Assembly (NCBI RefSeq): GCF_004151235.1
Contig: NZ_JUIV01000020.1
Coordinates: 1-64,000, forward strand
Source: Flavobacterium anhuiense
GTDB lineage: Bacteria > Bacteroidota > Bacteroidia > Flavobacteriales > Flavobacteriaceae
Length of the DNA: 64,000 nucleotides
Direction: 5' to 3'
Part shown: one piece after another, positions 1,209 through 53,597 of the stretch
Numbering within the stretch: position 1 is the stretch's first letter
Layout: each line of letters opens with the position of its first letter
Notes under the pieces: generated by a model
Told to the model about the DNA's origin: nothing
The model's input: only the letters and a program-made list of their open reading frames with translations
The model's database searches: none
Translations under genes and position numbers: made by a program

Positions 1209-1261
1209 AGTTTAAATTTACGGATTAATCGCGAAAATAAGAAGAGTTTTAACAAGGTGAT

Positions 1262-1433
1262 AAGATTCTGAGTTTCTAAGTTTTTGAGTTTCTGAGATTC
1301 TGAGATTCTGAATTTTCTTTCGAGATGCTGAATGTAATAAATAAAAAAGCTGTTTGCAGAGCAAACAGCCTTAGTGCTTAATATCTCAGGAGCTTAACAT
1401 CTTAGGATCTCAGAAACTTAGAGTCTTAGTATT
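1262..1433. repeat. Inverted pair of 8-bp-period CTRAGNTN arrays
   Basis: The left arm (about 1262-1330) consists of degenerate copies of CTRAGNTN at 8-bp spacing, such as CTAAGTTT and CTGAGATT. The right arm (about 1371-1433) carries the reverse complement (CTTAGNNN, CTCAGNNN). Between them lies a perfect 9-bp hairpin. The same family occurs near 40.8, 41.9, 47.1 and 53.35 kb. Confidence 0.8.
1349..1369 (-). terminator. Intrinsic terminator of the DUF937 gene
   Basis: A perfect inverted repeat, GCTGTTTGC and GCAAACAGC with a 3-nt loop, is followed on the minus strand by TTTTTTATTTATT. It lies about 70 bp past the DUF937 stop codon, inside the loop of the repeat pair at 1262-1433. Confidence 0.75.
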
Positions 1434-3061: not shown

Positions 3062-3160
3062 TTTATTGTTTATTTGGTTAATCGTTTAATTGTTTAATCG
3101 ATCAGCCAATTTTCGTTTTTTCTTTTTTTTTTGTACTGTAAACTGTAACTGCGACTGAAA
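3062..3160. repeat. GTTTAATN octamer array and ACTGNAA-type array in the serC-serA spacer
   Basis: From about 3072 to 3104 copies of GTTTAATN occur with 8-bp spacing (GGTTAATC, GTTTAATT, GTTTAATC). A T-rich run follows (3116-3132), then short ACTGTAA/ACTGAAA repeats to about 3160. The octamer matches the array at 38681-38755. Confidence 0.7.
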
Positions 3161-3161
3161 A

Positions 3162-4232
3162 CTAAACTTTAGTTTCTAATGCTTTCATTACGTCAACTAA
3201 AACTTGCACGCTTTCAATTGGCATAGCGTTGTAGATAGAAGCTCTGTAACCACCAACAGAACGGTGTCCTGGCAATCCAGAAATATTTGCAGCTTTCCAT
3301 AAAGCATCGAAAGTTTCTGTGTGCTCAGGATTTGTCAGTAAAAAAGTTACGTTCATGTTTGAACGATCTTCTACTTTAGCAGCACCTTTAAATAATGGGT
3401 TTCTGTCGATTTCAGCGTAAAGTAATTCAGCTTTAGCATTGTTTAATTTTTCAACAGCAGCAATTCCGCCTTTTTCTTTAATCCATTGTAATGTTAAAAG
3501 AGAAACATAAACAGCAAATACAGGTGGAGTATTGTACATACTTTCTCCTTTAATGTGTTTAGCGTAATCTAGCATGCTAGGAATTGTTCTTCCGTTTTTG
3601 CCTAAGATTTCTTCTTTAACCACTACTAATGTAGTTCCAGCAGGCCCCATATTTTTTTGAGCTCCAGCATAGATTAAATCGAATTTAGAAAAATCTAATT
3701 CGCGTGAAAAAATATCAGAACTCATATCGCATACAACAGGAACATTTGTTGTTGGGAATTCTTTCATTTGAGTTCCAAAGATGGTATTGTTACTTGTGCA
3801 GTGGAAATAATCAGCATCAGCTGGAATTTCGTAACCTTTTGGAACATAAGTATAATTGTCTTCTTTTGAAGAAGCTACGACAACAGTTTCACCGAAAAGT
3901 TTAGCTTCTTTGATTGCCGCAGTTGCCCACGTTCCTGAATCTAAATAAGCAGCTTTTCCGTTTTCTTTCATTAGGTTGTATGGTGCCATTAAGAAAGCTG
4001 TACTTGCACCACCTTGTAAAAATAAAGCCTGATAACCTTTTCCTTGAAGTCCTAATAATTCTAAAGCAAGGGAACGAGCTTCCTCCATAACTGCAACGAA
4101 ATCTTTGCTTCGGTGCGAGATTTCAAGGATAGATAACCCTGAATCATTAAAATTTAAAATTGCTTTTGATGCCTTCTCAAAAACTTCCTGAGGTAAAATA
4201 CTTGGTCCTGCGCTGTAGTTGTGTTTTTTCAT
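3162..4232 (-). CDS. serC: Phosphoserine aminotransferase
   Basis: A 356-residue class V aminotransferase that would convert 3-phosphohydroxypyruvate plus glutamate to phosphoserine, the second serine-pathway step. It starts MKKHNYSAGPSILP, the typical SerC N-terminus. The PLP-binding Lys sits in YAGAQKNMGPAG (near residue 193), and the C-terminal GHRSVGGYRASIYNA is the family signature. Full length for the family. It lies upstream of serA with a 107-bp spacer, so the two are probably co-transcribed. The third enzyme, phosphoserine phosphatase, is not in this window. Confidence 0.96.
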   Translation of the reverse strand: MKKHNYSAGPSILPQEVFEKASKAILNFNDSGLSILEISHRSKDFVAVMEEARSLALELLGLQGKGYQALFLQGGASTAFLMAPYNLMKENGKAAYLDSGTWATAAIKEAKLFGETVVVASSKEDNYTYVPKGYEIPADADYFHCTSNNTIFGTQMKEFPTTNVPVVCDMSSDIFSRELDFSKFDLIYAGAQKNMGPAGTTLVVVKEEILGKNGRTIPSMLDYAKHIKGESMYNTPPVFAVYVSLLTLQWIKEKGGIAAVEKLNNAKAELLYAEIDRNPLFKGAAKVEDRSNMNVTFLLTNPEHTETFDALWKAANISGLPGHRSVGGYRASIYNAMPIESVQVLVDVMKALETKV

Positions 4233-5437: not shown

Positions 5438-5468
5438 CAAAAATAAGCATAATTAAGTCGAAAGACAA
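5438..5468 (-). promoter_or_regulatory. Putative promoter of the acyl-CoA reductase-serC-serA unit
   Basis: On the minus strand a TTG (5468-5466) is followed after 20 nt by TATTTTTG (5445-5438), which fits the Bacteroidetes TTG/TAnnTTTG promoter. It lies about 40 bp upstream of the start codon at 5399 and partly inside a repeat array. Assignment by motif only. Confidence 0.5.
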
Positions 5469-5585
5469 AAGTGGAAAGTCGAAAGTCCTAAGTTGAAAAG
5501 ACTTTAATATTTTTACTTTAAATACTTTCAAACTTTATGACAAATTTTATGGCTTTATACTTTGTGACTTTTAAACTTTAAGACT
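5460..5585. repeat. GAAAGTC-type array facing an ACTTTNNN-type array
   Basis: Degenerate GAAAGTC units at about 7-bp spacing fill 5460-5507. From about 5515 to 5585 units beginning ACTTT recur at roughly 8-bp spacing. The two halves are approximately complementary. They fill the divergent spacer between the acyl-CoA reductase and ferredoxin genes. Confidence 0.6.
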
Positions 5586-28141: not shown

Positions 28142-30061
28142 TTATACCAGATTTGAGATATTATAACGTACTGAAATAAGTTCCTGAAGTTCTTTAATCG
28201 TTTTAAAAGTACGTTTCAGTTTAATTTTTTCCATTTTGGTTAAAGATTCCAATTCGATAAACTGACCAGAATCATGATGCAGTAATCCTTGTTTGGTTCT
28301 GAATTTCAGTAAAGCTTTAAACGAATAAGAACACGATAAATATAATTCTCTGTTATTTGGTTCCAGTTCAGCCAGTTTCTCAAAACGCTCTGCCGTATTA
28401 CTGATTCCTTTTACCGAATGCGATAAAATTAAAACACGCGCTGCGTCGGTTAAAGGCATTAAAGCTCTTCGTTTAATGTCAAAGTTATCTTTGTTTGCGC
28501 CGTCTTGTTCAACCAGAAATTGTCTAAAGAAACCTGTAGGAGAAGGGCTTTGCAAAGCACCACTCACCAAATGCATATAAAAAATCGGGTTCGCCTTTAT
28601 GGTTTCAAAAATAGAATCAGACAATTCGTTAACAATTTCAGAATCGCCATAAGTTTTGCTGTAATCGAAGAAAATGAATGAAAGTAAAACTTCATTCTTT
28701 CCAGGATTTGTAATCCAATGATGCACTTGAGCTTTCCATTCGTCCAAACTCATGCACCATTTTGGACTTGAAGCCATCATGTCGGCGGGGCAATAATCGT
28801 AACCAATCTCAAAAAGGCCTTTATTTACAAGACTAGCAAATTTGTGAAAATACACTCTAGTTTCATCTCTAAAAACCTCATTTACATTTTCGTACACAAT
28901 CGCATTGTCCTGATCAGTATGCAACATTTGTTCACCACGTCCTTGACTTCCAAGTGCTAGCCAAGCGAATTTTACAGGAGGCGGACTGCTCATTTTTTCT
29001 ATACAAATTTCGATAACTCGAGTTATGCAGGCTTCATTCAATTCGGTAATGATTTTGGTAATCAAAGTCATTGGAATGTTTTGATCCAAATAACCTTGAA
29101 GCAATTGCATAATTCGGTTACGAATTGGTTTTATCTCTTTAATCTTTTTGGTACGTTTCAACGCTTTTATCAAAACCGCTGGATTATTTCCGAGCGCCAC
29201 CATAACGTCGTGTTTTGACAAAATTCCAACTGCTTTTGTATTTACAGTCCCGTCTTTTGTCAAACATAAATGGCTGATATTGCTTTTCATCATCGCCATT
29301 TGCGCCTCGGTAACCGTCATTTTTTTCGGATACGTAATAACCGGTTTTGTCATTATTGTTTCGGCAGTTGTCGTTATAGGAAAATCTCCAGTGACAATTT
29401 TATTTCGAAGATCTTTATCCGTCAAAATACCAATCGGAAGCATTTCATCTACAATCAAAATGGCACCGACTTTTTTCTTATTCATAATTTTAGCAACATC
29501 CTTAACTGTCGTTGACGGACTGCAGGTAACTATTTTTTTCGAATATTTGATGGGCGCTAAATCGAAGGAATGATTGCTGGAATGCAGATTTTCATTCAGC
29601 TGATCGTCACCATATAATTTATCTTTATGAATATCCGAATACGGATTTCGCGTATTAGAAGCATAACTCTCAATCAAGAAATTGCCAACATTTCTATTTT
29701 CTAGCGCATAAGGTTTAAAAACGGCAATCGGAATAGCGTACAAAATGCTTTCTTCATGCGCTACCGCTTCCATAATATAGTTTTCCTGCGCTAAAAGCGG
29801 ACGAAGTCCAAAAATATCGCCTTCATCGCACATGTCCAAAACCGTATTTTTAGTGCTTTTTTTCAGAGCGACAGCACCTTTATGAACTACATAAAATGAG
29901 TCGTGCGTTTTGTCATTTTCGGCAAAAATTACAGCATCTTTTTCTTTATATATAATCGAAATCTGTTCAGACAGTTTTTCTAAATCTCTCTGATGCAAAA
30001 AATTAAACGGCGGATATCCTTTTAAAAAGTCAGCAACTCTTTGTGAAATGGTATTTTTCAT
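28142..30061 (-). CDS. cNMP-binding / CBS / DUF294 nucleotidyltransferase protein
   Basis: A 639-residue cytoplasmic protein. Residues about 15-125 are a cyclic-nucleotide-binding-like domain. Two CBS domains follow (about 185-295, with KKVGAILIVDEMLPIGILTDKDLR and SNISHLCLTK). A DUF294 putative nucleotidyltransferase domain (about 320-460) contains LALGSQGRGEQMLHTDQDNAIVY with the GS...D.D signature of the polymerase-beta superfamily. A helical C-terminal domain ends the protein. Members are thought to modify nucleotides or proteins under nucleotide control; the substrate is not established. First gene of a two-gene unit with the DnaQ-like exonuclease. Confidence 0.9.
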   Translation of the reverse strand: MKNTISQRVADFLKGYPPFNFLHQRDLEKLSEQISIIYKEKDAVIFAENDKTHDSFYVVHKGAVALKKSTKNTVLDMCDEGDIFGLRPLLAQENYIMEAVAHEESILYAIPIAVFKPYALENRNVGNFLIESYASNTRNPYSDIHKDKLYGDDQLNENLHSSNHSFDLAPIKYSKKIVTCSPSTTVKDVAKIMNKKKVGAILIVDEMLPIGILTDKDLRNKIVTGDFPITTTAETIMTKPVITYPKKMTVTEAQMAMMKSNISHLCLTKDGTVNTKAVGILSKHDVMVALGNNPAVLIKALKRTKKIKEIKPIRNRIMQLLQGYLDQNIPMTLITKIITELNEACITRVIEICIEKMSSPPPVKFAWLALGSQGRGEQMLHTDQDNAIVYENVNEVFRDETRVYFHKFASLVNKGLFEIGYDYCPADMMASSPKWCMSLDEWKAQVHHWITNPGKNEVLLSFIFFDYSKTYGDSEIVNELSDSIFETIKANPIFYMHLVSGALQSPSPTGFFRQFLVEQDGANKDNFDIKRRALMPLTDAARVLILSHSVKGISNTAERFEKLAELEPNNRELYLSCSYSFKALLKFRTKQGLLHHDSGQFIELESLTKMEKIKLKRTFKTIKELQELISVRYNISNLV

Positions 30062-30205: not shown

Positions 30206-30577
30206 TTAATCTACTTTATAAACTGTACCTCGCTGTTTTTCTTCAGAACCAACCAGACCAAACTCAAAAGTATAAGAATCTTTAGAAGTCGTTAAAATCT
30301 TCATGCTGATGGCTTTTTCTTCAGCCATATTTTTTGGATGCTTTTTCTGCAGCACATATTCGCAGTCACTTACCCAACGAATGGTCGCCGTATCTGTTTT
30401 GCCTTCAAAAGTTTCGATTTCAATATCGTCTTTGCGTTCAAAATAAGTTGTTTTTTTAATGCCGTTGACTTCTGTTTCAAATTTGAATTTTCCAGTTTTA
30501 AAATCCTTGCAATTGTGTTCTGTATTATAACAAGATACTAAAGCAAGTACCGGAAATAAGAATAGTATTTTTTTCAT
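30206..30577 (-). CDS. Small lipoprotein, function unknown
   Basis: A 123-residue lipoprotein (MKKILFLFPVLALVSC, lipid-attached Cys16). The mature part starts with a Cys-containing segment (HNCKDFKTGKFKFE), has a central RWVSDCEYVLQKKHPK and a C-terminal SYTFEFGLVGSEEKQRGTVYK, suggesting a small beta-sandwich with a disulfide. I recall homologues in Flavobacterium that are sometimes mislabelled DNA topoisomerase IV; nothing here supports that name. Function unknown. Confidence 0.75.
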   Translation of the reverse strand: MKKILFLFPVLALVSCYNTEHNCKDFKTGKFKFETEVNGIKKTTYFERKDDIEIETFEGKTDTATIRWVSDCEYVLQKKHPKNMAEEKAISMKILTTSKDSYTFEFGLVGSEEKQRGTVYKVD

Positions 30578-30597: not shown

Positions 30598-30690
30598 AGG
30601 AGCTAATCCCGCTTTCCATTTCAATCTTTTTATTTTTAAAGAAAAAATAAAAAGGATTTCCATTGCAATCGGGGCTAGGGCATTAGGATA
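30598..30690. repeat. Long imperfect hairpin element (Flavobacterium-type intergenic repeat)
   Basis: GGAGCTAATCCCGCTTTCC is followed by CTTTTTATTTTT, a short turn, AAAAATAAAAAG and then ATCGGGGCTAGGGC. The inner 12-bp AT-rich stem is perfect, and the outer GC-rich ends pair imperfectly (TAATCCCG with CGGGGCTA). I recall elements with very similar ends between genes of other Flavobacterium genomes. It lies just upstream of the small lipoprotein gene. Confidence 0.6.
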
Positions 30691-38679: not shown

Positions 38680-38757
38680 GTTTAACCGTTGATTCGTTTA
38701 ATCGTTTAATTGTTTTCTTTGCCGATTAAACGGTTAAACAATTAAATGATTAACCAA
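38680..38757. repeat. Facing GTTTAATN / GATTAAAC octamer arrays
   Basis: The left arm (about 38681-38713) contains GTTTAACC, GTTGATTC, GTTTAATC and GTTTAATT in strict 8-bp phase. The right arm (about 38726-38755) contains GATTAAAC, GGTTAAAC, AATTAAAT and GATTAACC in the same phase and opposite sense. It fills the spacer between the ZIP and methyltransferase genes. Confidence 0.85.
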
Positions 38758-38758
38758 T

Positions 38759-39523
38759 TTATTTAAAAATCATGATTAATCTTTCGCTTTCAGTTTTATG
38801 GAATTTTTTGAGTTTATAGTCTCCAAAAATGTCCAGAAGGAAAATTCCAGCTTCGTCCATTAAATCCTGAAAGTCTTTCAAAGTTAGTGCTTTTACTTTT
38901 TCTGTAAAATGATATTTTCTGCCTTTGTCTTCAAAATCAATTTCTTTGAAAATATGTCCGTCTTCAACATATCTTTTGATGTGAAAATCTATTTCGTCAA
39001 CCGTTTTTACTTCTTCAGGCACAAGATTTTCAATAACGTTTGCCACGTTCATGAAATCGATAACAGCAAAACCATATTCAGACAGACTTTCCTTAATTGC
39101 CTTTAAGGTTGTTAGATTATCATCGTCGCTTTCGAAATAGCCAAAACTAGTGAAAAGGTTAAAAATAGCGTCGAACTTTTCTTCAAACGGCTCGCGCATA
39201 TCGTGCACTTTAAAATGCAGTGTTTCGTTGCTGTTTTTGCTGGCCTCGGCAATACTGTTTTCAGACAAATCTGCTCCTAAAACATCATAGCCAAGTTGAT
39301 TTAAATAAATAGAATGACGGCCTTTTCCGCACGCTAAATCCAATACTTTTGCTTTCTCAGGCAAATTAAGGTAATGCGTTAAATTGTCCATGAAAATCTG
39401 AGCTTCACGATAATTACGATCCTTATAAAGAATGTGATAATATGGCGTATCAAACCATGAAGAATACCAGTTTTGATTATCGTCTTCTTGGTTTGGGGTT
39501 GATGCGTTATGTTCTTGAGACAT
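38759..39523 (-). CDS. Class I SAM-dependent methyltransferase
   Basis: A 254-residue cytoplasmic methyltransferase. The SAM-binding motif I is KVLDLACGKGRHSIYL (about residues 59-74), motif II follows at DVLGADLSENSI, and the post-motif NLFTSFGYFESDDDN is typical of the small-molecule methyltransferase group (Methyltransf_25). The substrate is not evident. It is divergent from the THUMP methyltransferase gene. Confidence 0.88.
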   Translation of the reverse strand: MSQEHNASTPNQEDDNQNWYSSWFDTPYYHILYKDRNYREAQIFMDNLTHYLNLPEKAKVLDLACGKGRHSIYLNQLGYDVLGADLSENSIAEASKNSNETLHFKVHDMREPFEEKFDAIFNLFTSFGYFESDDDNLTTLKAIKESLSEYGFAVIDFMNVANVIENLVPEEVKTVDEIDFHIKRYVEDGHIFKEIDFEDKGRKYHFTEKVKALTLKDFQDLMDEAGIFLLDIFGDYKLKKFHKTESERLIMIFK

Positions 39524-39659
39524 TTATTCTATTTCAATTAATTCAAAGTCCGGCAAATTTAGTGTATTTTTGCCGAAAAATAACTATTTCGCTACGATAC
39601 GTATTTATACCAGTATAATAAAATGTTATAGCGATTGGCTTTTTTTAATTGAAAAAGAA

Positions 39660-40817
39660 ATGGAAGAAAATTTTAAAATGATTGCCAAATGTTTTTTTGG
39701 CTTTGAAGAAATATTAGAAAAAGAATTGCGCACACTTGGCGCTCAGGATGTTGAAAAAGGAGTGAGAATGGTGAGCTTTAAAGGAGATAAAGGTTTTATG
39801 TACAAAGCCAATCTTTCTTTGCGTACGGCTCTTAAAGTCCTTAAACCAATTTATTCTTTTAGAGCAAATAATGAGCAGGCTTTATACAAAGGTATTTCGG
39901 GTTTAAACTGGTCAAAATATTTAAATGCGAATCAGACTTTTGTGATTGATACCACGGTGCATTCTACTTATTTCAATCATTCTGAATTTGTTTCTCAGAA
40001 ATGTAAAGATGCAATTGTAGACCAGTTTAGAGAAAGAACAGGGCAAAGACCAAGCATAGACAAGCAATATCCAGATTTACGCATTAATATTCATATCGAT
40101 AAAGATCAGGTTTCGGTAGCTTTAGACACTTCTGGGGCTTCTCTTCATCAGCGTGGTTATAGAACAGCTACGAATATTGCGCCAATTAATGAGGTTTTAG
40201 CAGCTGGAATCCTTTTATTGTCTGGATGGGAAGGGCAAAGCCATTTTCTTGACCCAATGTGCGGTTCTGGAACTTTCTTGGCAGAAGCGGCTATGATTGC
40301 CTGCAATATTCCAGCAAACATCAACAGAAAAGAGTTCGCTTTTGAAAAATGGAAAGATTGGGATAATGATTTGTTTGATACAATTGTGGATAGTTTAATG
40401 AAAAAAACACGCGAGTTTCATTATACGATTAAAGGTTTTGATAAAGCACCAAGTGCTGTAAACAAAGCCAAAGACAATATCAGAAATGCCAATTTAGAAG
40501 ATTATATTAAGGTTTACGAAGAAAATTTCTTTGACACGGAAAAAGAAACAGAAGGAAAACTTCATATCGTTTTCAATCCGCCTTACGATGAGCGTTTAGA
40601 TATTAATATGGAAAGATTCTATGCTAATATTGGAAACACTTTGAAGAAAAATTATCCTGGAACAAATGCTTGGTTTATCACGGCAAATCTTGAAGCTTTA
40701 AAATTTGTAGGATTAAAACCGTCAAGAAAAATCAAACTTTTCAACGGAAGTCTTGAAGCGCGTTTGGTGAAATACGAAATGTACGAAGGAAGTAAGAGAA
40801 CGAAATTTCAGTCATAA
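39660..40817 (+). CDS. THUMP-domain 23S rRNA guanine methyltransferase (RlmL N-terminal type)
   Basis: About 385 residues from the ATG at 39660 (MEENFKMIAKCFFGFEEILEKEL); the upstream TTG frame extension is unlikely. A THUMP RNA-binding domain (about residues 55-160) precedes a methyltransferase domain with FLDPMCGSGTFLAEAAMIA and the base-methylating motif IVFNPPYDERL. This matches the single-domain relatives of E. coli RlmL/RlmK that methylate guanine N2 in 23S rRNA. The exact target is inferred. Confidence 0.9.
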   Translation: MEENFKMIAKCFFGFEEILEKELRTLGAQDVEKGVRMVSFKGDKGFMYKANLSLRTALKVLKPIYSFRANNEQALYKGISGLNWSKYLNANQTFVIDTTVHSTYFNHSEFVSQKCKDAIVDQFRERTGQRPSIDKQYPDLRINIHIDKDQVSVALDTSGASLHQRGYRTATNIAPINEVLAAGILLLSGWEGQSHFLDPMCGSGTFLAEAAMIACNIPANINRKEFAFEKWKDWDNDLFDTIVDSLMKKTREFHYTIKGFDKAPSAVNKAKDNIRNANLEDYIKVYEENFFDTEKETEGKLHIVFNPPYDERLDINMERFYANIGNTLKKNYPGTNAWFITANLEALKFVGLKPSRKIKLFNGSLEARLVKYEMYEGSKRTKFQS

Positions 40818-40962
40818 GTTTCTAAGATACTAAGATTCTGAGATGCTAAGAATTTTAGTGAAATGAAAAAAATATAATTTAAAATAAATTTTAAGTTTCT
40901 AAGAATATAAGTTGCAAGAAGAAAAACTTAGCATCTTAGCATCTCAGAACCTTAGCAACTCT
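40818..40962. repeat. Inverted CTRAGNTN octamer arrays, 40.8 kb
   Basis: The forward arm (about 40820-40855) is CTAAGATA, CTAAGATT, CTGAGATG, CTAAGAAT in 8-bp phase. The reverse arm (about 40927-40962) holds CTTAGCAT, CTTAGCAT, CTCAGAAC, CTTAGCAA. Over 22 bp the two arms differ by a single position. The first array starts directly after the stop codon of the THUMP gene. Confidence 0.9.
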
Positions 40963-41216: not shown

Positions 41217-41909
41217 ATGAAGAAAATTGGACTTATCGGCGGAATCAGCTGGGTTTCTACATCAGATTATTATACTTTAATTAATAAAGGGATTAATGAA
41301 AAACTCGGCGGATTGAATTTCTCTGAGTGTTTGATTTACTCTTTTAATTATGCCGATATTAAAAAGAATAACGATGCCAACGATTGGGATTCGACTTTTA
41401 GTATGCTTTTGAAAGCTGCAGAAGTTTTAAAATCGGGCGGGGCAGAAGCTATTCTTTTATGTGCCAATACCATGCATTTAATTGCAGATAGACTGCAAAA
41501 TGCTATTGATATTCCTCTTATTCATATTGCTGAAGAAACAGCAATTGAAATTGAGAAAAAACAGCTGAAGAAAGTAGGTCTTTTGGGAACGAAATTTACT
41601 ATGGAATTGGATTTCTTTAAAGACAAACTTGCTGACAAAGGAATTGAAACAATAATTCCAGTAAGCGAAGAAGTCAAAGATTTCATTCATTATACGATTT
41701 TTGAAGAATTAGGAAGAGGACTTGCAACAGAAGAGACAAAAAAACGTTATCTAGAAATAGCAAATGAATTGATAAAAAACGGAGCAGAGGGGATCATTTT
41801 AGGGTGTACTGAAATTCCGCTAGTCATAAAAGAAGGAGACTTAAATGTTCCGATTTTTGACACAACTTTAATACACACACAAGCAGCAATTAATTTTCAA
41901 TTAACATAG
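41217..41909 (+). CDS. Aspartate/glutamate racemase family protein
   Basis: A 230-residue PLP-independent racemase of the Asp/Glu/hydantoin family. The two catalytic Cys lie in AILLCANTMHLIADRL (about residue 83) and GIILGCTEIPLVI (about residue 196), and the N-terminus KKIGLIGGISWVSTSDYY is typical. It probably interconverts D- and L-aspartate, although broader specificity is common. Cytoplasmic. Followed by a terminator hairpin nested in an octamer array. Confidence 0.92.
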   Translation: MKKIGLIGGISWVSTSDYYTLINKGINEKLGGLNFSECLIYSFNYADIKKNNDANDWDSTFSMLLKAAEVLKSGGAEAILLCANTMHLIADRLQNAIDIPLIHIAEETAIEIEKKQLKKVGLLGTKFTMELDFFKDKLADKGIETIIPVSEEVKDFIHYTIFEELGRGLATEETKKRYLEIANELIKNGAEGIILGCTEIPLVIKEGDLNVPIFDTTLIHTQAAINFQLT

Positions 41910-41912
41910 TTT

Positions 41913-42043
41913 CGAGTTGCTAAGCTACTAAGGTTCTAAGTTGCTTAGTTTCTAAACATCATAAAAAAAGGGGAAAATTCAAATTGAATTTTCCCCTTTT
42001 TTTTTAATCTTAGAACCTTAGTATCTTAGAATCTTAGCGTCTA
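41913..42043. repeat. Inverted CTRAGNTN octamer arrays, 41.9 kb
   Basis: The forward arm (about 41917-41957: CTAAGCTA, CTAAGGTT, CTAAGTTG, CTTAGTTT) and the reverse arm (about 42009-42043: CTTAGAAC, CTTAGTAT, CTTAGAAT, CTTAGCGT) flank a strong central terminator hairpin, between convergent genes. Confidence 0.9.
41966..42004. terminator. Bidirectional terminator between the racemase and DUF6048 genes
   Basis: AAAAGGGGAAAATTCAA and TTGAATTTTCCCCTTTT form a perfect 17-bp stem, with A/T runs on both sides that suit termination in both directions. It lies in the loop of the octamer-array pair. Confidence 0.9.
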
Positions 42044-42052
42044 AAAAAAAAA

Positions 42053-42889
42053 CTATTTCTTCTTAGGCTCTTCTTTCTTTGCAATTTCAGATGCCATTGT
42101 TTTTTTCTTGTAAATCGGAATAAAGTAAGAAACCGTATAGTTGAAACCAATTCCAAAACTTCCGTCATAAGTTCTGTTGAATCCTGGAATATAAAGGTTT
42201 TCAAAATTGTTTGGCTCTTTGTTAGTAGCCAAAAGTTTAAGCTGAACACCAAAACCGACAAATACGTTATTGAAAACTTTTGCTTTTAATCCCATTGCAA
42301 CCTCGATCCAAGTTGCTGTAAGTCCGCTGTATTTTTGACCTTCATTTATCGGAGGCAATTCACCCCAATATGGATTCGGATTATAGATTTTGTAATTAAT
42401 TAGCTCTTGGCTAAAAGTACTGAATCCGCCACGCATTCCTATCGTAATCAGGTTTTCCATATCTAACCAGTTTTGATAAAAATTATAATCAAAACCTGCT
42501 TTAATATAGGTTCCGTTAGCAGAAGAAGTCAATCGGTCGTCTTCTGTAGTTTTGTCTTCGTATCCTAATTCTGCGGCTATATAATATTTTTTTGTCAAAC
42601 GCCAGTCTCCTACAAATTCAATTCCTTTGTAATCTTTATCGTAAAGTCCGCGAGTTAGTTTGTACAAGTCAACACCAACACGAAGTCCGTAGCGATCAGT
42701 TTTTACAACGCTATCTTTTGGAGCTTCCTGAATTTCTGGTTTTACCGTTTTTACAGTTTTTTCTGTTTGAGGCTTTTTAGCCACTATTGTGTCTTTATTT
42801 TTAGAAATTTCAGGCACATCCTGAGCAAAACCTAAAAACATTGAAAACAATAATGAAAGACTAAAAATAAACTTTAATGTGTGTTTCAT
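42053..42889 (-). CDS. DUF6048-like outer-membrane beta-barrel protein
   Basis: About 278 residues from the ATG at 42889 (MKHTLKFIFSLSLLFSMFLGFAQD, a clear signal peptide); an upstream TTG is less likely. After a Lys/Pro-rich linker (residues about 25-60) the body has alternating strands (YGLRVGVDLYKLTRGLY, YYIAAELGYEDKTTED, TYIKAGFDYNFYQNW, ATWIEVAMGLKAKVFNNVFVGFGVQLK) as expected of a small outer-membrane barrel. The order rlmD-DUF6452-DUF6048 is one I recall from other Flavobacteria. It overlaps the upstream DUF6452 gene by 29 bp. Confidence 0.8.
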   Translation of the reverse strand: MKHTLKFIFSLSLLFSMFLGFAQDVPEISKNKDTIVAKKPQTEKTVKTVKPEIQEAPKDSVVKTDRYGLRVGVDLYKLTRGLYDKDYKGIEFVGDWRLTKKYYIAAELGYEDKTTEDDRLTSSANGTYIKAGFDYNFYQNWLDMENLITIGMRGGFSTFSQELINYKIYNPNPYWGELPPINEGQKYSGLTATWIEVAMGLKAKVFNNVFVGFGVQLKLLATNKEPNNFENLYIPGFNRTYDGSFGIGFNYTVSYFIPIYKKKTMASEIAKKEEPKKK

Positions 42890-43403
42890 TTTCAAATTCA
42901 ATGTTAGGGTTTTCTAAATCAACTTCGGTCATCCAAAAAGTATCTCCGTCTGGATCAGTGTGAACAAAAGGTGCAACGTTTGTTAACTGAAAAATGGTTT
43001 TAAATCCACAAGCTCTAGATACATACACATTTTGTGTCGTATAATTGAATTTTATAACATCAGTATTGATCGTTGTAGGCGTTTCACTTAAAGAGTTATA
43101 AATAAACTTGAAGGTTGTTGTGTTGTCATTTATTTTTAAAGGAATCATGACACTACTTCCGCTGGTTACATATCTCAACGGATCATCAACGGCGAGACTT
43201 TCATTAAAAACAATTCCCTGTTCCATTCCGTCACCAATAACTTTTAAGTTACTCACATTTCTAGTTTTTGTCGGATTGGCAATATCAAAAAATGTAATCA
43301 CCAATCTAGGTGTAGTTGGTGTATTGGCATCGCAAATATCATCTTTCTCACAGCTGGATAAGCCAAAAGTAAAGAGCAGTAAAAGAGAAATTAGTTTTTT
43401 CAT
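42861..43403 (-). CDS. DUF6452-like lipoprotein
   Basis: A 180-residue lipoprotein (MKKLISLLLLFTFGLSSC, lipid-attached Cys18) that matches my recollection of DUF6452: EKDDICDANTPTTPRLVITFFD near the N-terminus and VYVSRACGFKTIFQ later. Probably periplasmic or surface attached, function unknown. It is 8 bp downstream of rlmD and overlaps the start of the DUF6048 gene by 29 bp, so the three form one transcription unit. Confidence 0.82.
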   Translation of the reverse strand: MKKLISLLLLFTFGLSSCEKDDICDANTPTTPRLVITFFDIANPTKTRNVSNLKVIGDGMEQGIVFNESLAVDDPLRYVTSGSSVMIPLKINDNTTTFKFIYNSLSETPTTINTDVIKFNYTTQNVYVSRACGFKTIFQLTNVAPFVHTDPDGDTFWMTEVDLENPNIEFENETHIKVYF

Positions 43404-46097: not shown

Positions 46098-47084
46098 CTA
46101 CCAAAGTTGATGCACCGAAGGTTTGATCAAATCGCTGTAAATTTTGTTCATCGCTGTAATCTGCTCAGAAGTTAATTTAGGAGCATCATAAACCGATAAA
46201 TTGGATAAAACATGTTCTGTTTTTGATGCGCCTGGAATAATACAGCTTACTTCGTCAAAACTCAAAATCCATTGAAGCGCAATTGCAGCTAGATTTTTTG
46301 ATTCAGGAAATAATGCTTTTAATTCGTCAACAGCTCTCAATCCTAATTCATAATCAATTCCAGAAAAAGTTTCTCCTTTATCAAACGCTTCTCCGTTACG
46401 ATTAAAGTTACGATGATCCTGAGGTTCAAAAGTGGTTTTTGAATCAAATTTACCCGTTAAAAGTCCGCTTGCTAGCGGAACTCTTGCGATAATTCCAATG
46501 TCTTTTTTTCTTGCTTCCGCGAAAAACAATTCAGAAGGACGCTGACGAAATAGGTTGAAAATTATCTGAACCGTAGTTACATTAGAATATTCAATTGCTT
46601 TTAATGCTTCTTCCACTTTTTCAACGCTTACTCCAAGATTAAGAATTTTTCCCTGATCCTTTAATCGGTCAAAAAGTTCAAATATTTCTGGACGATAATA
46701 AACTTCTGTTGGCGGACAGTGTAGCTGAATCAAATCCAATGTTTCTAAACCAGTTCTTTTTAAACTGTCTTCAACAAATTTTTGAAGCACTTTTGGAGTA
46801 TATCCTTCATTAACATGCGGATTTATCTGGCGTCCGCATTTTGTGGCAACAAAAATTCGTTCAGAACGTGAACGAGCGACTCTTCCAACGGCAGTTTCAC
46901 TTAATCCGTTTTCGTATACATCGGCAGTGTCAATAAAGTTTACACCATTGTCAATAGCCGTGTTCAAAAGTTCGTCGGCTGTTTTATCATCAAAACCTGA
47001 TCCCCATTTTCCACCAACTTGCCAAGTGCCAAGTGAGATTTCAGAGATATTAAAGTTTGTTTTTCCTAGTTTTCTGTAGTTCAT
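46098..47084 (-). CDS. Aldo/keto reductase
   Basis: A 328-residue NADPH-dependent (beta/alpha)8 oxidoreductase. The catalytic tetrad is visible: Asp and Tyr in FIDTADVYENGLSE, Lys in VATKCG and His in LIQLHCPP. It also has GVSVEKVEEAL and the C-terminal IIPGASKTEHVLSNL. It resembles the general AKR11/12 group of unknown substrate. Cytoplasmic. Separated from the cysM gene upstream by octamer arrays. Confidence 0.92.
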   Translation of the reverse strand: MNYRKLGKTNFNISEISLGTWQVGGKWGSGFDDKTADELLNTAIDNGVNFIDTADVYENGLSETAVGRVARSRSERIFVATKCGRQINPHVNEGYTPKVLQKFVEDSLKRTGLETLDLIQLHCPPTEVYYRPEIFELFDRLKDQGKILNLGVSVEKVEEALKAIEYSNVTTVQIIFNLFRQRPSELFFAEARKKDIGIIARVPLASGLLTGKFDSKTTFEPQDHRNFNRNGEAFDKGETFSGIDYELGLRAVDELKALFPESKNLAAIALQWILSFDEVSCIIPGASKTEHVLSNLSVYDAPKLTSEQITAMNKIYSDLIKPSVHQLW

Positions 47085-47090
47085 TTTTTT

Positions 47091-47223
47091 AAGATTCTAA
47101 GGTTCTGAGTCGCTGAGATGCTAAGTTTTTTTTCTCTTAAGTTTCTAAGCTGCTAAGGCTTTAAGTGACAAAGTTTTTATTGTTTTTTGACTTAGAAGCT
47201 TAGAGCCTTAGCAACTTAGCATC
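47091..47223. repeat. Inverted CTRAGNTN octamer arrays, 47.1 kb
   Basis: The forward arm has CTAAGGTT, CTGAGTCG, CTGAGATG, CTAAGTTT (about 47096-47128) and CTAAGCTG, CTAAGGCT (about 47145-47160). The reverse arm (about 47191-47223) has CTTAGAAG, CTTAGAGC, CTTAGCAA, CTTAGCAT. It lies between the cysM stop codon and the aldo/keto reductase start codon. Confidence 0.9.
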
Positions 47224-47228
47224 TTTTT

Positions 47229-48116
47229 TTAATCAAATAAATCAGAAGACAAATAACGGTCGCCACGATCGCAGATTACGGCAACTACGACTCCAGATTC
47301 TAGTTGTTCGGCTATTTTTAAGGCAACGGCAACAGAGCCTCCGCTGCTCATTCCTGCAAAAACACCTTCTTCCAAAGCTAGTCTTTTGGTCATGGCACGT
47401 GCTTCTTCTTCACTTACATCGACAACGGTATCTACTTTAGAAGCATCAAATATTTTCGGAAGATATTCTTGCGGCCATTTACGGATTCCAGGAATCTGAG
47501 AACCATCACTAGGTTGTGCACCAATAATTTGAACATTTGGATTCTTTTCTTTCAAATAAGTCGAAGTTCCAATAATGGTTCCAGTTGTTCCCATAGCCGA
47601 AACAAAATGCGTTACAGTTCCGTCAGTATCATTCCATATTTCGGGACCTGTTGTCTTGTAATGGGCTTTCCAGTTGTCATCATTTGCAAACTGATTCAAC
47701 ATCAAATAGCCGCCTTGTGCCACTTTTTTATCGGCATAATCTCTAGAACCTATAATTCCTTCGCTAGCAGGCGTAAGAATAACTGTGGCGCCATAAGCAC
47801 GCATAGTTTGAGTACGTTCTTTGGTTGAATCTTCTGGTAAAACCAATTCGATTTCGATGCCAAATAACTGTGCAATCATCGCCAAAGCAATTCCAGTATT
47901 TCCGCTGGTTGCTTCAATCAATTTATCTCCCTTTTTGATGTCGCCTCTTTCTAATGCTGAAGCAATCATATTGTATGCGGCTCTATCTTTTACGCTTCCT
48001 CCCGGATTATTTCCTTCTAGTTTTAGCAGAAGCTTTACATTTTTATTTTTAACTAGATTGACTGTTTCCATTAGAGGAGTATTGCCAATTAGGTTTAATA
48101 ATTTATGTGAATTCAT
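47229..48116 (-). CDS. cysM: Cysteine synthase B
   Basis: A 295-residue PLP enzyme that makes cysteine from O-acetylserine and sulfide. The PLP Lys lies in NNPGGSVKDRAAYNM (about residue 43), the substrate loop is EATSGNTGIALAM, and SAMGTTGTI binds the cofactor phosphate. The length and NTPLMETV start fit CysM better than CysK, although the separation is modest. The start codon is 1 bp after the serine acetyltransferase stop codon, so the two are tightly co-transcribed. Confidence 0.92.
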   Translation of the reverse strand: MNSHKLLNLIGNTPLMETVNLVKNKNVKLLLKLEGNNPGGSVKDRAAYNMIASALERGDIKKGDKLIEATSGNTGIALAMIAQLFGIEIELVLPEDSTKERTQTMRAYGATVILTPASEGIIGSRDYADKKVAQGGYLMLNQFANDDNWKAHYKTTGPEIWNDTDGTVTHFVSAMGTTGTIIGTSTYLKEKNPNVQIIGAQPSDGSQIPGIRKWPQEYLPKIFDASKVDTVVDVSEEEARAMTKRLALEEGVFAGMSSGGSVAVALKIAEQLESGVVVAVICDRGDRYLSSDLFD

Positions 48117-49861: not shown

Positions 49862-49880
49862 GAAAATCTAAAATCTAAAA
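49862..49880. repeat. Short AAAATCT heptamer repeat
   Basis: Two to three copies of the 7-bp unit found at the left edge of the window, in the spacer between the DUF1003 and DUF2752 genes. Confidence 0.7.
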
Positions 49881-52142: not shown

Positions 52143-52216
52143 CGTAAAATTTATTTGTGTCAAAAATAGTGAAAAAAATGCCAAATGATATTTAAGATTT
52201 GACAATTGATATTTGT

Positions 52217-52224
52217 TAACTTTG
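52217..52224 (+). promoter_or_regulatory. Putative -7 element of the cysteine desulfurase gene
   Basis: TAACTTTG matches TAnnTTTG and ends 5 bp before the ATG at 52230. Transcription would begin at or within a few bases of the start codon, implying a nearly leaderless mRNA. A TTG about 15 bp upstream is slightly too close for the -33 element. Confidence 0.4.
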
Positions 52225-52229
52225 CAGTA

Positions 52230-53354
52230 ATGAAAAAAGTATATCTAGATAATGCCTCAACAACTGCCATGCGTCCTGAAGTAATTCAGGAAATGACGAA
52301 AATAATGCTTGAGGATTACGGAAATCCATCGTCTACACATAGTTTTGGACGAAACGGTAAAACAATATTAGAACTTTCAAGAAAGAGTATTGCGAAGCAT
52401 TTAAATTGCACTGCTCAAGAAATCATTTTTACTTCTGGAGGAACCGAAGCCGACAACTGGATTTTGCGTTCTGCTGTTGAAGATTTGAAAGTAGAAAGAA
52501 TCATTACTTCAAAGATAGAACACCATGCGGTTTTGCATACCGTTTGGGCGCTTCAAGAAGAATATAATATTCAGGTAGATTACGTTAATGTCAATGCAGA
52601 CGGAAGTTTAGATCTAACACATTTATCAAATTTATTGTCTGGTGAAAAAAAGACGATAGTCAGTTTAATGCATGTTAATAACGAAACGGGAGCTATTTTA
52701 GATTTAGATCGCGTTGGCTTGATTTGCAAGCAATACAATGCATTGTTTCATTCAGATACGGTTCAGTCAGTAGGGAAGACAGAAATCGATCTGCAAAAGA
52801 CTCCTGTTGATTTTATTTTGGCTAGTGCGCATAAGTTTCATGGCCCAAAGGGAATTGGTTTTGCTTTTATCCGAAAAAATTCTGGTTTGCAGCCATTGCT
52901 ATTTGGAGGAGAACAAGAAAAAGGCCTTCGTGCCGGAACTGAAGCCGTGCATCAGATAGCTGGAATGGCAAAAGCTTTGTCTATTTCTTATGAAAAATTA
53001 GATGAAGAAAGAGCTTATATTTCAAGTATAAAAAAATATCTGATTGAGCAGTTAGAAATTCATTTCCCAGATTTTAGAATCAACGGAAAAAAGGATGATT
53101 TTTATAACATCATTAATATCATTTTGCCGTTTTCATCAGATAAAACTTCGATGCTACTTTTTAGTTTAGATATGAAAGGAATTGCGGTTTCTAGAGGAAG
53201 CGCTTGCCAGTCTGGAAGTATAAAGCCTTCACATGTTTTAAACGAAATGCTTTCGGAGACTGATTTAAAATTACCAAATCTCCGAATTTCATTTAGTCAT
53301 TATAATACCAAAGAAGATATCGATTGGCTTATTGAGAGTTTGAAAACTGTCTAA
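52230..53354 (+). CDS. Cysteine desulfurase (IscS/NifS family)
   Basis: About 374 residues from the ATG at 52230 (MKKVYLDNASTTAMRPEVIQ). A PLP enzyme that removes sulfur from cysteine for Fe-S clusters and tRNA thiolation. Conserved parts: SGGTEADNWIL, KIEHHAVLHT, the PLP Lys in SAHKFHGPKGIGF (about residue 198) and the active-site Cys in AVSRGSACQSGS (about residue 320). No Fe-S scaffold gene is adjacent. Its stop codon forms part of the first unit of an octamer array. Confidence 0.93.
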   Translation: MKKVYLDNASTTAMRPEVIQEMTKIMLEDYGNPSSTHSFGRNGKTILELSRKSIAKHLNCTAQEIIFTSGGTEADNWILRSAVEDLKVERIITSKIEHHAVLHTVWALQEEYNIQVDYVNVNADGSLDLTHLSNLLSGEKKTIVSLMHVNNETGAILDLDRVGLICKQYNALFHSDTVQSVGKTEIDLQKTPVDFILASAHKFHGPKGIGFAFIRKNSGLQPLLFGGEQEKGLRAGTEAVHQIAGMAKALSISYEKLDEERAYISSIKKYLIEQLEIHFPDFRINGKKDDFYNIINIILPFSSDKTSMLLFSLDMKGIAVSRGSACQSGSIKPSHVLNEMLSETDLKLPNLRISFSHYNTKEDIDWLIESLKTV

Positions 53355-53390
53355 GTTGCTAAGATGCTAAGGTTCTGAGATTCTAAGTTT
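53351..53390. repeat. One-armed CTRAGNTN octamer array starting at a stop codon
   Basis: CTAAGTTG, CTAAGATG, CTAAGGTT, CTGAGATT, CTAAGTTT in strict 8-bp phase, then a T run. The TAA stop codon of the cysteine desulfurase gene is inside the first unit. No inverted partner array follows here. Confidence 0.9.
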
Positions 53391-53505: not shown

Positions 53506-53597
53506 ATTCTTAATAAATCTTTCTTTGTGAACTTTTCGATAAAAATTGTACTCAAAGTTTTTCAAGAACCTGAAACCTGAAACTTGAAACAAAAAAA

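Follow-up and report, generated by a model that had tools for sequence, protein, structure and literature searches.

Structure of the element downstream of the THUMP gene

The window, i.e., the whole analyzed stretch of 64,000 nt of Flavobacterium anhuiense DNA, contains a gene encoding a THUMP/RlmL-type methyltransferase (39570–40817), the nearest relative in this gene being L039 (F. anhuiense; 95%). The gap downstream of this gene is occupied by element B, in which the following features were identified:

40814..40852, + strand: stop-side arm of element B, CTRAGNTN array (repeat search and two-unit pattern scan)
40892..40918, + strand: degenerate sense array within the loop of element B (repeat copy at 40892–40911; extent by eye)
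40925..40955, − strand: start-side arm of element B, inverse array preceding the start (40971) of a gene of 78 aa

The original prediction of CTRAGNTN units in 8-bp phase was confirmed for both arms. The inverse array begins 72 nt past the first one, in agreement with the expected distance of about 70 bp, and the expected inverted match of 22 bp with one mismatch is present by eye (CTAAGRTTCTGAGATGCTAAGA), the repeat search giving 27 nt at 89%. The array had been thought to start right after the THUMP stop codon; it starts at 40814, and the stop TAA (40815–40817) is part of its first unit (C-TAA-G or A-TAA-G). In L047, L080, and L101, the hairpin unit is present as tandem copies within one THUMP gap.

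Arrays of the same family were found at all the other predicted places of the window, namely, as facing arms in elements A, C, and D (in the latter, two sense arrays span 47089–47159) and as a solo arm in element E; GTTTAAYN is a further sister family of the same layout:

1260..1314, + strand: left arm of element A, start side of the gene 774–1208 (−)
1383..1429, − strand: right arm of element A, stop side of the gene 1437–2000 (−)
38671/38680..38759, no strand: sister family GTTTAAYN, facing octamer arrays (kept in most related genomes by eye)
41912..41950, + strand: left arm of element C, past the stop of the Asp/Glu racemase gene 41217–41909 (start by eye)
41963..42006, no strand: inner bidirectional terminator-like hairpin of element C, resembling those of related array-free gaps
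42007..42037, − strand: right arm of element C, past the stop of the convergent DUF6048 gene 42053–42901
47089..47127, + strand: arm of element D, adjoining the start of the aldo/keto reductase gene 46098–47084 (−)
47137..47159, + strand: second, shorter sense array of element D
47189..47219, − strand: arm of element D, adjoining the stop of the PALP-family gene 47229–48116 (−)
53351..53389, + strand: solo arm, element E, its first unit including the stop of the class-V aminotransferase gene 52206–53354

The two arms of element A enclose a terminator-like hairpin (about 1343–1370, by eye), and the terminator of element C is a separate inner hairpin, distinct from the arms. Elements B and D lack the layout of an intrinsic terminator, namely, a G+C-rich stem with a T-run behind it in the gene direction; they are succeeded by an A-run ahead of the following start. 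The GTTTAAYN element was retained at this gap in most of 78 related genomes (by eye), and CTRAG or CARAG arrays (see below) were present there in none of the 78. At the gathering threshold, Rfam gave a single match in the window, outside the arrays: Flavo-1 RNA (RF01705) at 30601–30680 (−), with 78.9 bits.

Abundance and composition of the arrays

In the window, 38 matches to two CTRAG units (one mismatch at most) were found, against a mean of 0.82 and a maximum of 4 in 100 dinucleotide shuffles. Three units with up to one mismatch gave 219 + 204 matches in the genome (423), against 2 + 4 (6) for the reversed control pattern. Chance is thus excluded, and the expected excess over shuffled sequence was borne out, the density being far above both the shuffles and the control pattern. 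A second core of the same layout, CARAGNNN, gave 70 + 50 exact matches in the genome (120) and none for the control; arrays with the two cores are referred to here as CT and CA arrays. When 505 gaps of the genome were scanned at lags of 5–24, lags 7 and 8 and their multiples were the most prominent: 36 gaps showed lag 7 and 29 showed lag 8, where chance would give about 1 of each, and lags 14, 16, and 21 were raised, along with lag 9 (6 vs. 0.7) and small excesses at some longer lags. Only 5 of 267 arrays lay mostly within ORFs, and the arrays are intergenic tandem arrays whose unit falls in the 5–11-nt range of the STRR/LSSR kind.

Arrays of the own genome were taken from C1:1–400000, C2:1–400000, the window, and 20 stretches picked for holding arrays; detection required the core with no more than one mismatch per unit and at least three units, a rule that in part determines the smallest unit numbers observed. 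The consensus of the CT unit was C T R A G D Y D (80 own arms, 277 units) and that of the CA unit CARAGDND. Core positions 2, 4, and 5 of the CT unit were conserved in 273, 275, and 274 of the 277 units, a constancy inflated because the arrays were detected by that core; C was scarce at positions 6 (10/277) and 8 (3/277), and position 7 was T in 238/277. Four or five units were present in 66 of the 80 own CT arms and, at five sites in the relatives, in 175 of 199 CT arms, five being as frequent as four, while CA arms at these sites had 3–5 units in 133 of 135 cases and four units in 74. T-tracts flanked the own CT arms on either side (n = 80). The basic module is one arm of about 50 nt, consisting of a T-tract, mostly 4–5 octamers, and a T-tract; the inverted layout is formed by two such arms facing each other, and many arms stand solo.

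The similarity search in six genomes (the own one and five relatives) revealed, among the matches listed, dozens of other matches per genome to an arm of 43–50 nt (up to 94–98%). Full-length matches of at least 82% to element D (own genome and L039) and element B (L037) were listed only at their own sites, and two other listed places matched D at 68–70% over almost its full length. Shared runs of three identical units numbered 17 vs. 7.5 in shuffles (sd 3.0, largest shuffle 20) and those of two identical units 266 vs. 192 (sd 22, largest 270), which is a weak signal of the copying of whole arms. Contig C3 (L168, 368959–368995) terminates no more than 5 bases from a perfect CTGAGATT array, and such arrays may break assemblies.

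Position and polarity at ORF edges

At stop codons, CT arrays were mostly in the sense orientation (42 sense vs. 11 antisense in the own genome; 154 vs. 19 in the relatives and the window), whereas at start codons they were nearly always antisense (25 antisense vs. 2 sense; 92 vs. 1). The same was found for CA arrays, both in the relatives (stops: 73 sense vs. 20; starts: 92 antisense vs. 7) and in the own genome (9 vs. 2 and 6 vs. 1, respectively). The median distance of sense arrays to the stop was 5 nt in the own genome and 7 nt in the relatives, as anticipated by the predicted enrichment at 3′ ends; antisense arrays, however, preceded start codons with medians of 14 nt (own) and 10 nt (relatives), and the arrays are consequently a feature of ORF edges rather than of 3′ ends. 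It should be noted that genes were called by script as the longest ORFs, which makes the starts uncertain and biases the start-side distances low. Antisense CT arrays near stops were located farther away (medians of 43 and 51 nt in the own genome and the relatives, respectively); in the relatives, nearly all of them were far arms of pairs (solo, 2/19), and in the own genome 6 of 11 were solo. Seen from the ORF, a single rule holds: the CTRAG strand is directed outward, mostly at ORF edges. Two outward-pointing modules in one gap therefore face each other and are able to fold as a hairpin.

Among own CT solo arms no more than 15 nt from an ORF end, outward polarity was found in 24 of 29, and five broke the rule. 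In roomy gaps, 20 of 27 own CT solos were this close to an ORF end, against 4.5 in random placement (maximum 10 in 2000 draws), while for own CA solos the figure was 2 of 6 vs. 1.0 by chance, so that the edge rule in the own sample rests on the CT family. The CT elements of 80 related loci and the window (n = 148, orthologues and hence non-independent) comprised 103 tandem, 45 convergent, and no divergent ones; in own stretches chosen without bias, 20 were tandem, 8 convergent, and 3 divergent. The latter share (3 of 31 elements vs. 106 of 473 gaps) gave a Fisher p of 0.12, and 6 of 119 CA elements of the relatives were divergent; avoidance of divergent gaps is therefore not claimed. Convergent gaps contained 3 of 119 CA elements vs. 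44 of 148 CT elements in the relatives and 2 of 11 CA elements in the own sample.

Of the stop-side CT arrays (within 40 nt), 12 of 41 in the own genome and 39 of 154 in the relatives had the stop of the gene in their first unit. These overlaps would suit a role as back-up stop codons, since CTRAG holds TAA or TGA and a pitch of 8 nt covers all three frames past the stop; however, the CARAG core, which is without a stop codon, replaces CTRAG at the same sites, and the start-side arms are left unexplained, which makes such a role highly improbable.

Pairing of the two arms

Hairpin-mediated protection of 3′ ends or coupling of neighboring genes has been proposed for REP/BIME elements. A long stem selected in the transcript for the same effects could be considered for the octamer elements, as element B alone folds to −35.9 kcal/mol (z = −4.87). 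Pairing was evaluated by swapping arms, using elements in which the + arm precedes a − arm (18 of 56 own CT elements). The mean duplex energy of the own pairs was −31.37 kcal/mol vs. −31.47 kcal/mol for swapped ones, with 2662 of 5000 swaps as good, and the right arm of element B ranked 10th among the 18 right arms of the genome as a partner of its left arm, whereas in 33 terminators used as a control the values were −24.5 vs. −14.0, with 0 of 5000 swaps as good. A long RNA stem as a conserved feature was thus rejected for the own genome, the control demonstrating the power of the test.

In swaps between genomes, the number as good per 5000 was 363 (CT) and 168 (CA) at site B, 4905 (CT, worse than swapped) and 20 (CA) at site D, 991 at site C (CT), 496 at site F (CA), and 5 at site H (CT), where F is the gap of orthologues of the genes 30206–30577 and 28142–30061, and H lies between the orthologue of the gene 46098–47084 and a gene absent from the window. 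The predicted conservation of arm pairing was accordingly not supported in the own genome and was mixed in the relatives, being clear only in the H CT and D CA sets, which hint at coupling beyond the common core; CA arms of the relatives also matched their own partner slightly better than swapped ones (0.651 vs. 0.606). No preference for G-U over A-C was found in arm pairs of the own CT elements or of the relatives: the counts were 42:101 in CT tandem elements of the relatives, 8:21 in own CT elements, and 51:48 in CA tandem elements of the relatives. Since own arms pair no better than swapped ones and G-U is not preferred, the pairing arises mainly from one common core. Furthermore, 38 of 56 own CT elements had arms of a single strand (36 single arms and two “++”, a partner being counted if it had two perfect units). 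The long-stem reading is thus weak, and a selected hairpin appears improbable.

Retention of elements and turnover of families at orthologous sites

An element was present in the THUMP gap (site B) in 70 of 75 genomes and at site D in 63 of 68, whereas several other gaps of similar length contained elements in 0 of 58–78 genomes. In the tree set, site B comprised 38 CT and 30 CA elements (68 genomes) and site D 34 CT and 28 CA elements (62 genomes), mixed and empty gaps being omitted; L039 has an element at site D that was scored absent in both the presence counts and the tree set because a called ORF overlaps part of it. On the FastTree phylogeny, the family changed at least 21 times at B and at least 19 times at D, compared with 22.5 and 20.6 for shuffled labels, i.e., without phylogenetic signal. 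Thus, at B and D the gap retains an element across species while the CTRAG/CARAG family and the allele turn over. The association between the labels of the two sites was weak (38 concordant vs. 20 discordant cases, p = 0.033). Switching does not occur at all sites, since C and H contained only CT elements and F contained CA elements in 22 of 24 cases, with two mixed. A palindrome in the site-D loop, GTAGAGRCGCACAGCAGTGCGTCT, was observed in L079, L081, L085, L090, L095, and L103, which represent several species.

Comparison of elements with their flanks was performed for 19 pairs taken from the extremes, i.e., those of greatest similarity or closest relatedness (identity over aligned columns). 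At site D, elements were more similar than the flanks in L049/L076 (92% vs. 83/83%), L045/L076 (92% vs. 83/83%), and L034/L041 (95% vs. 87/87%), and much less similar, close to the background level, in L042/L045 (70% vs. 94/92%) and the own genome/L037 (67% vs. 92/92%). Elements of distant species that are closer than their flanks, together with unlike elements in near relatives, suggest that species may have exchanged whole elements at a shared site. Recombination should also leave a signal in the flanks, and this signal was weak. The CT/CA label was not linked to the flanks past 100 bp at B or at any distance at D, and the signal of the B label below 100 bp was not seen with trimmed windows and element similarity in place of the label. 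The partial correlation between element and flank (68 and 66 genomes passing the length filters) was at most 0.14 within 100 bp, was negative at B L 0–50 and B R 0–50, and was still 0.10 at D L 200–400. At B and D, the identity of the gap between close relatives was 0.60 and 0.55, respectively; among eleven other gaps, eight were at 0.75–0.95, and three gaps without CT/CA arrays were at 0.50, 0.61, and 0.66, i.e., approximately as variable as B and D, which counts against the exchange.

At site C, CT arms were found in 17 of 52 genomes, and in 33 of the other 35 the gap was shorter than 110 nt and contained a bidirectional terminator by eye. Where CT arms are present, each is placed between a stop codon and the terminator; L041, L055, and L065 have only one arm, and the array state changes twice on the tree. 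These gaps show a clear gain of arms around a terminator found without them in related genomes. The own genome and L039 differ at this site by one 8-bp unit, which supports the slippage proposed in the original prediction; the gene-conversion-like spread proposed along with it was partly right, the strongest signal being that of whole-element exchange between species at the same site.

Distribution and mobility

The range of the arrays was assessed in draws of genomes from the genus and the family and, beyond the family, in viral contigs. CT arrays were detected in 79 of 150 Flavobacterium genomes (up to one mismatch), some with one to a few matches, and the largest numbers were found in genomes exceeding about 4 Mb, although exceptions occurred in both directions; CA arrays were found in 117 of 150 (no mismatch), many with few matches. 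In other genera of the family, CT matches were found in one of 247 sampled genomes (two matches without mismatch, one of them a plain repeat). Four units were present in 13 viral contigs, of which 10 carried near-uniform simple repeats by eye, and carriage by phages was rejected on this basis. In the viral contigs L187, L193, and L196, four CTRAG-type units with varied spacers were observed, which may or may not be members of the octamer family.

REP/BIME elements with RAYT transposases are small, numerous, and extragenic; they can form hairpins and have a tagged palindrome of 20–40 bp. A mobile element of the MITE or REP kind, moved by a transposase such as the Y1 family TnpA, would be in line with the recurrence of arms at unrelated sites and with the gain at site C; however, two-unit CT/CA arrays were found around none of the six Y1_Tnp loci of the genome (up to about 1.5 kb a side), and the viral contigs likewise speak against mobility. 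The RAYT/Y1 transposase link was therefore rejected, and a mobile element in general appears quite improbable. Unlike REP/BIME, the octamer arms are built from tandem octamers, lack the tagged palindrome (consensus of arms with 14-nt flanks), occur alone, and are absent near Y1_Tnp genes. A REP survey includes two Flavobacterium genomes among those in its available text (PMC12306157). Other palindromes, REP-like by eye, were observed beside some Y1_Tnp genes (L111–L116), e.g., GCGCGAGCG and CCCACGGTTGAAACCGTGGG.

Possible origin and function of the arrays

The reading to which we give about an even chance is that the arrays are dispersed Flavobacterium repeat modules subject to whole-element replacement and slippage and kept as a tolerated or mildly useful UTR segment. 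Changes would arise mainly by replacement of the whole element with the same-site allele of another species, probably through short-tract homologous recombination, and units would be gained and lost through slippage. The module would be tolerated or mildly useful between the stop and the terminator or just ahead of the start, and the stem would simply result from two modules of a common core facing each other, rather than being what selection retains. Candidate causes of the constancy of the 5-bp core are homogenization and a binding factor. Neutrality alone leaves the unit number and the ORF-edge rule unexplained.

A binding platform, in which a host protein would read the 5-nt core every 8 nt four to five times in DNA or in the mRNA UTR, with free spacers and with CT and CA arrays read by the same factor or by two factors, is possible, although on balance doubtful. 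The near-constant core (constant in part because of how arrays were detected), the mixed spacers, the narrow unit number, the orientation and ORF-edge rule in most solo arms, and the retention of sites across many genomes are consistent with it, whereas the family switches at B and D, which leave no phylogenetic trace, and the restriction of CT arrays to about half of the Flavobacterium genomes argue against it. A promoter reading (TAnnTTTG in CTTTG arms) was rejected, as it does not fit the CT family.

A more speculative and rather unlikely combination is that of exchangeable cassettes: a predicted factor reading the core at the 8-nt pitch would mark ORF edges, and elements of 90–200 bp would be traded at the same site between Flavobacterium species, with breakpoints at ORF ends. 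If so, the gap would keep its array while the family turns over faster than species diverge. Whatever their origin, sites kept over some 65–70 genomes with a family that flips approximately as chance labels do represent a natural experiment on site-level vs. sequence-level selection.

Comparison with known repeat systems

The octamer arrays look like a new octamer form of arrays known with 7-letter units in other bacteria. The STRR (short tandemly repeated repetitive) sequences of cyanobacteria are degenerate intergenic short-unit arrays of several families; unlike the octamers, their units are heptamers, and they belong to another phylum. No paper on these octamers was found in searches of an open-access library, and one may exist elsewhere.

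According to the available sections of Rehm et al. (2015, PMC4692102), the GGGAATC and GGGGA(C/T)T heptamers of Xanthomonas and Nostoc are mostly non-coding, favor aligned ORFs, and are few between divergent ones; they are sense within 50 bp of the stop, in some cases overlapping it, and antisense within 50 bp upstream of the ORF. They prefer four units, for which a link to the G-quadruplex was proposed, occur as single arrays and inverted pairs, and keep 83% of their positions between two relatives, with extensive variation in length and sequence. Similarly to the heptamers described there (GGGNATC), the octamers are sense near the stop and antisense near the start, comprise four to five units (five being equally common in the CT family), stand solo or in inverted pairs, and keep their sites between relatives. 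In contrast, their unit is 8 nt rather than 7, and CTRAGDYD and CARAGDND as a rule lack a G-tract, so that the link between four units and the G-quadruplex cannot apply to them; nor do those sections describe a switch of family at a single site. The rule of placement and polarity and the similar unit number, tied to G-quadruplexes elsewhere, hold for units unable to form one, and a more general explanation of ORF-edge arrays is therefore needed.

In the Nostoc trnL intron, as reported in the accessible parts of Kaasalainen et al. (2015, PMC4476775; also PMC3488679), degenerate 7-nt tandem units form the P6b hairpin, and its classes I and II replace each other at one site against the phylogeny, which was read as unidirectional. 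The octamer families also replace one another at one site independently of phylogeny; unlike P6b in that account, with its 7-nt units at one intron site, they have 8-nt units and occupy many gene borders. The TAACTGA heptamers of Beggiatoaceae, in the available text of MacGregor (2015, PMC4679880), form many intergenic sets by start codons and occur in five Bacteroidetes as well; they are fixed direct repeats located mostly just upstream of starts, with one indirect repeat. The octamers resemble them as numerous intergenic short tandem sets at start codons but are degenerate, are also found on the stop side, and are often inverted. Heptamer arrays are also present in the window (5455–5498, 3138–3170, 53567–53590, 49863–49880, and 1–41), with the cores AAGTCGA, ACTGTAA, AACCTGA, and AAAATCT, and some of them lie opposite inverted copies.
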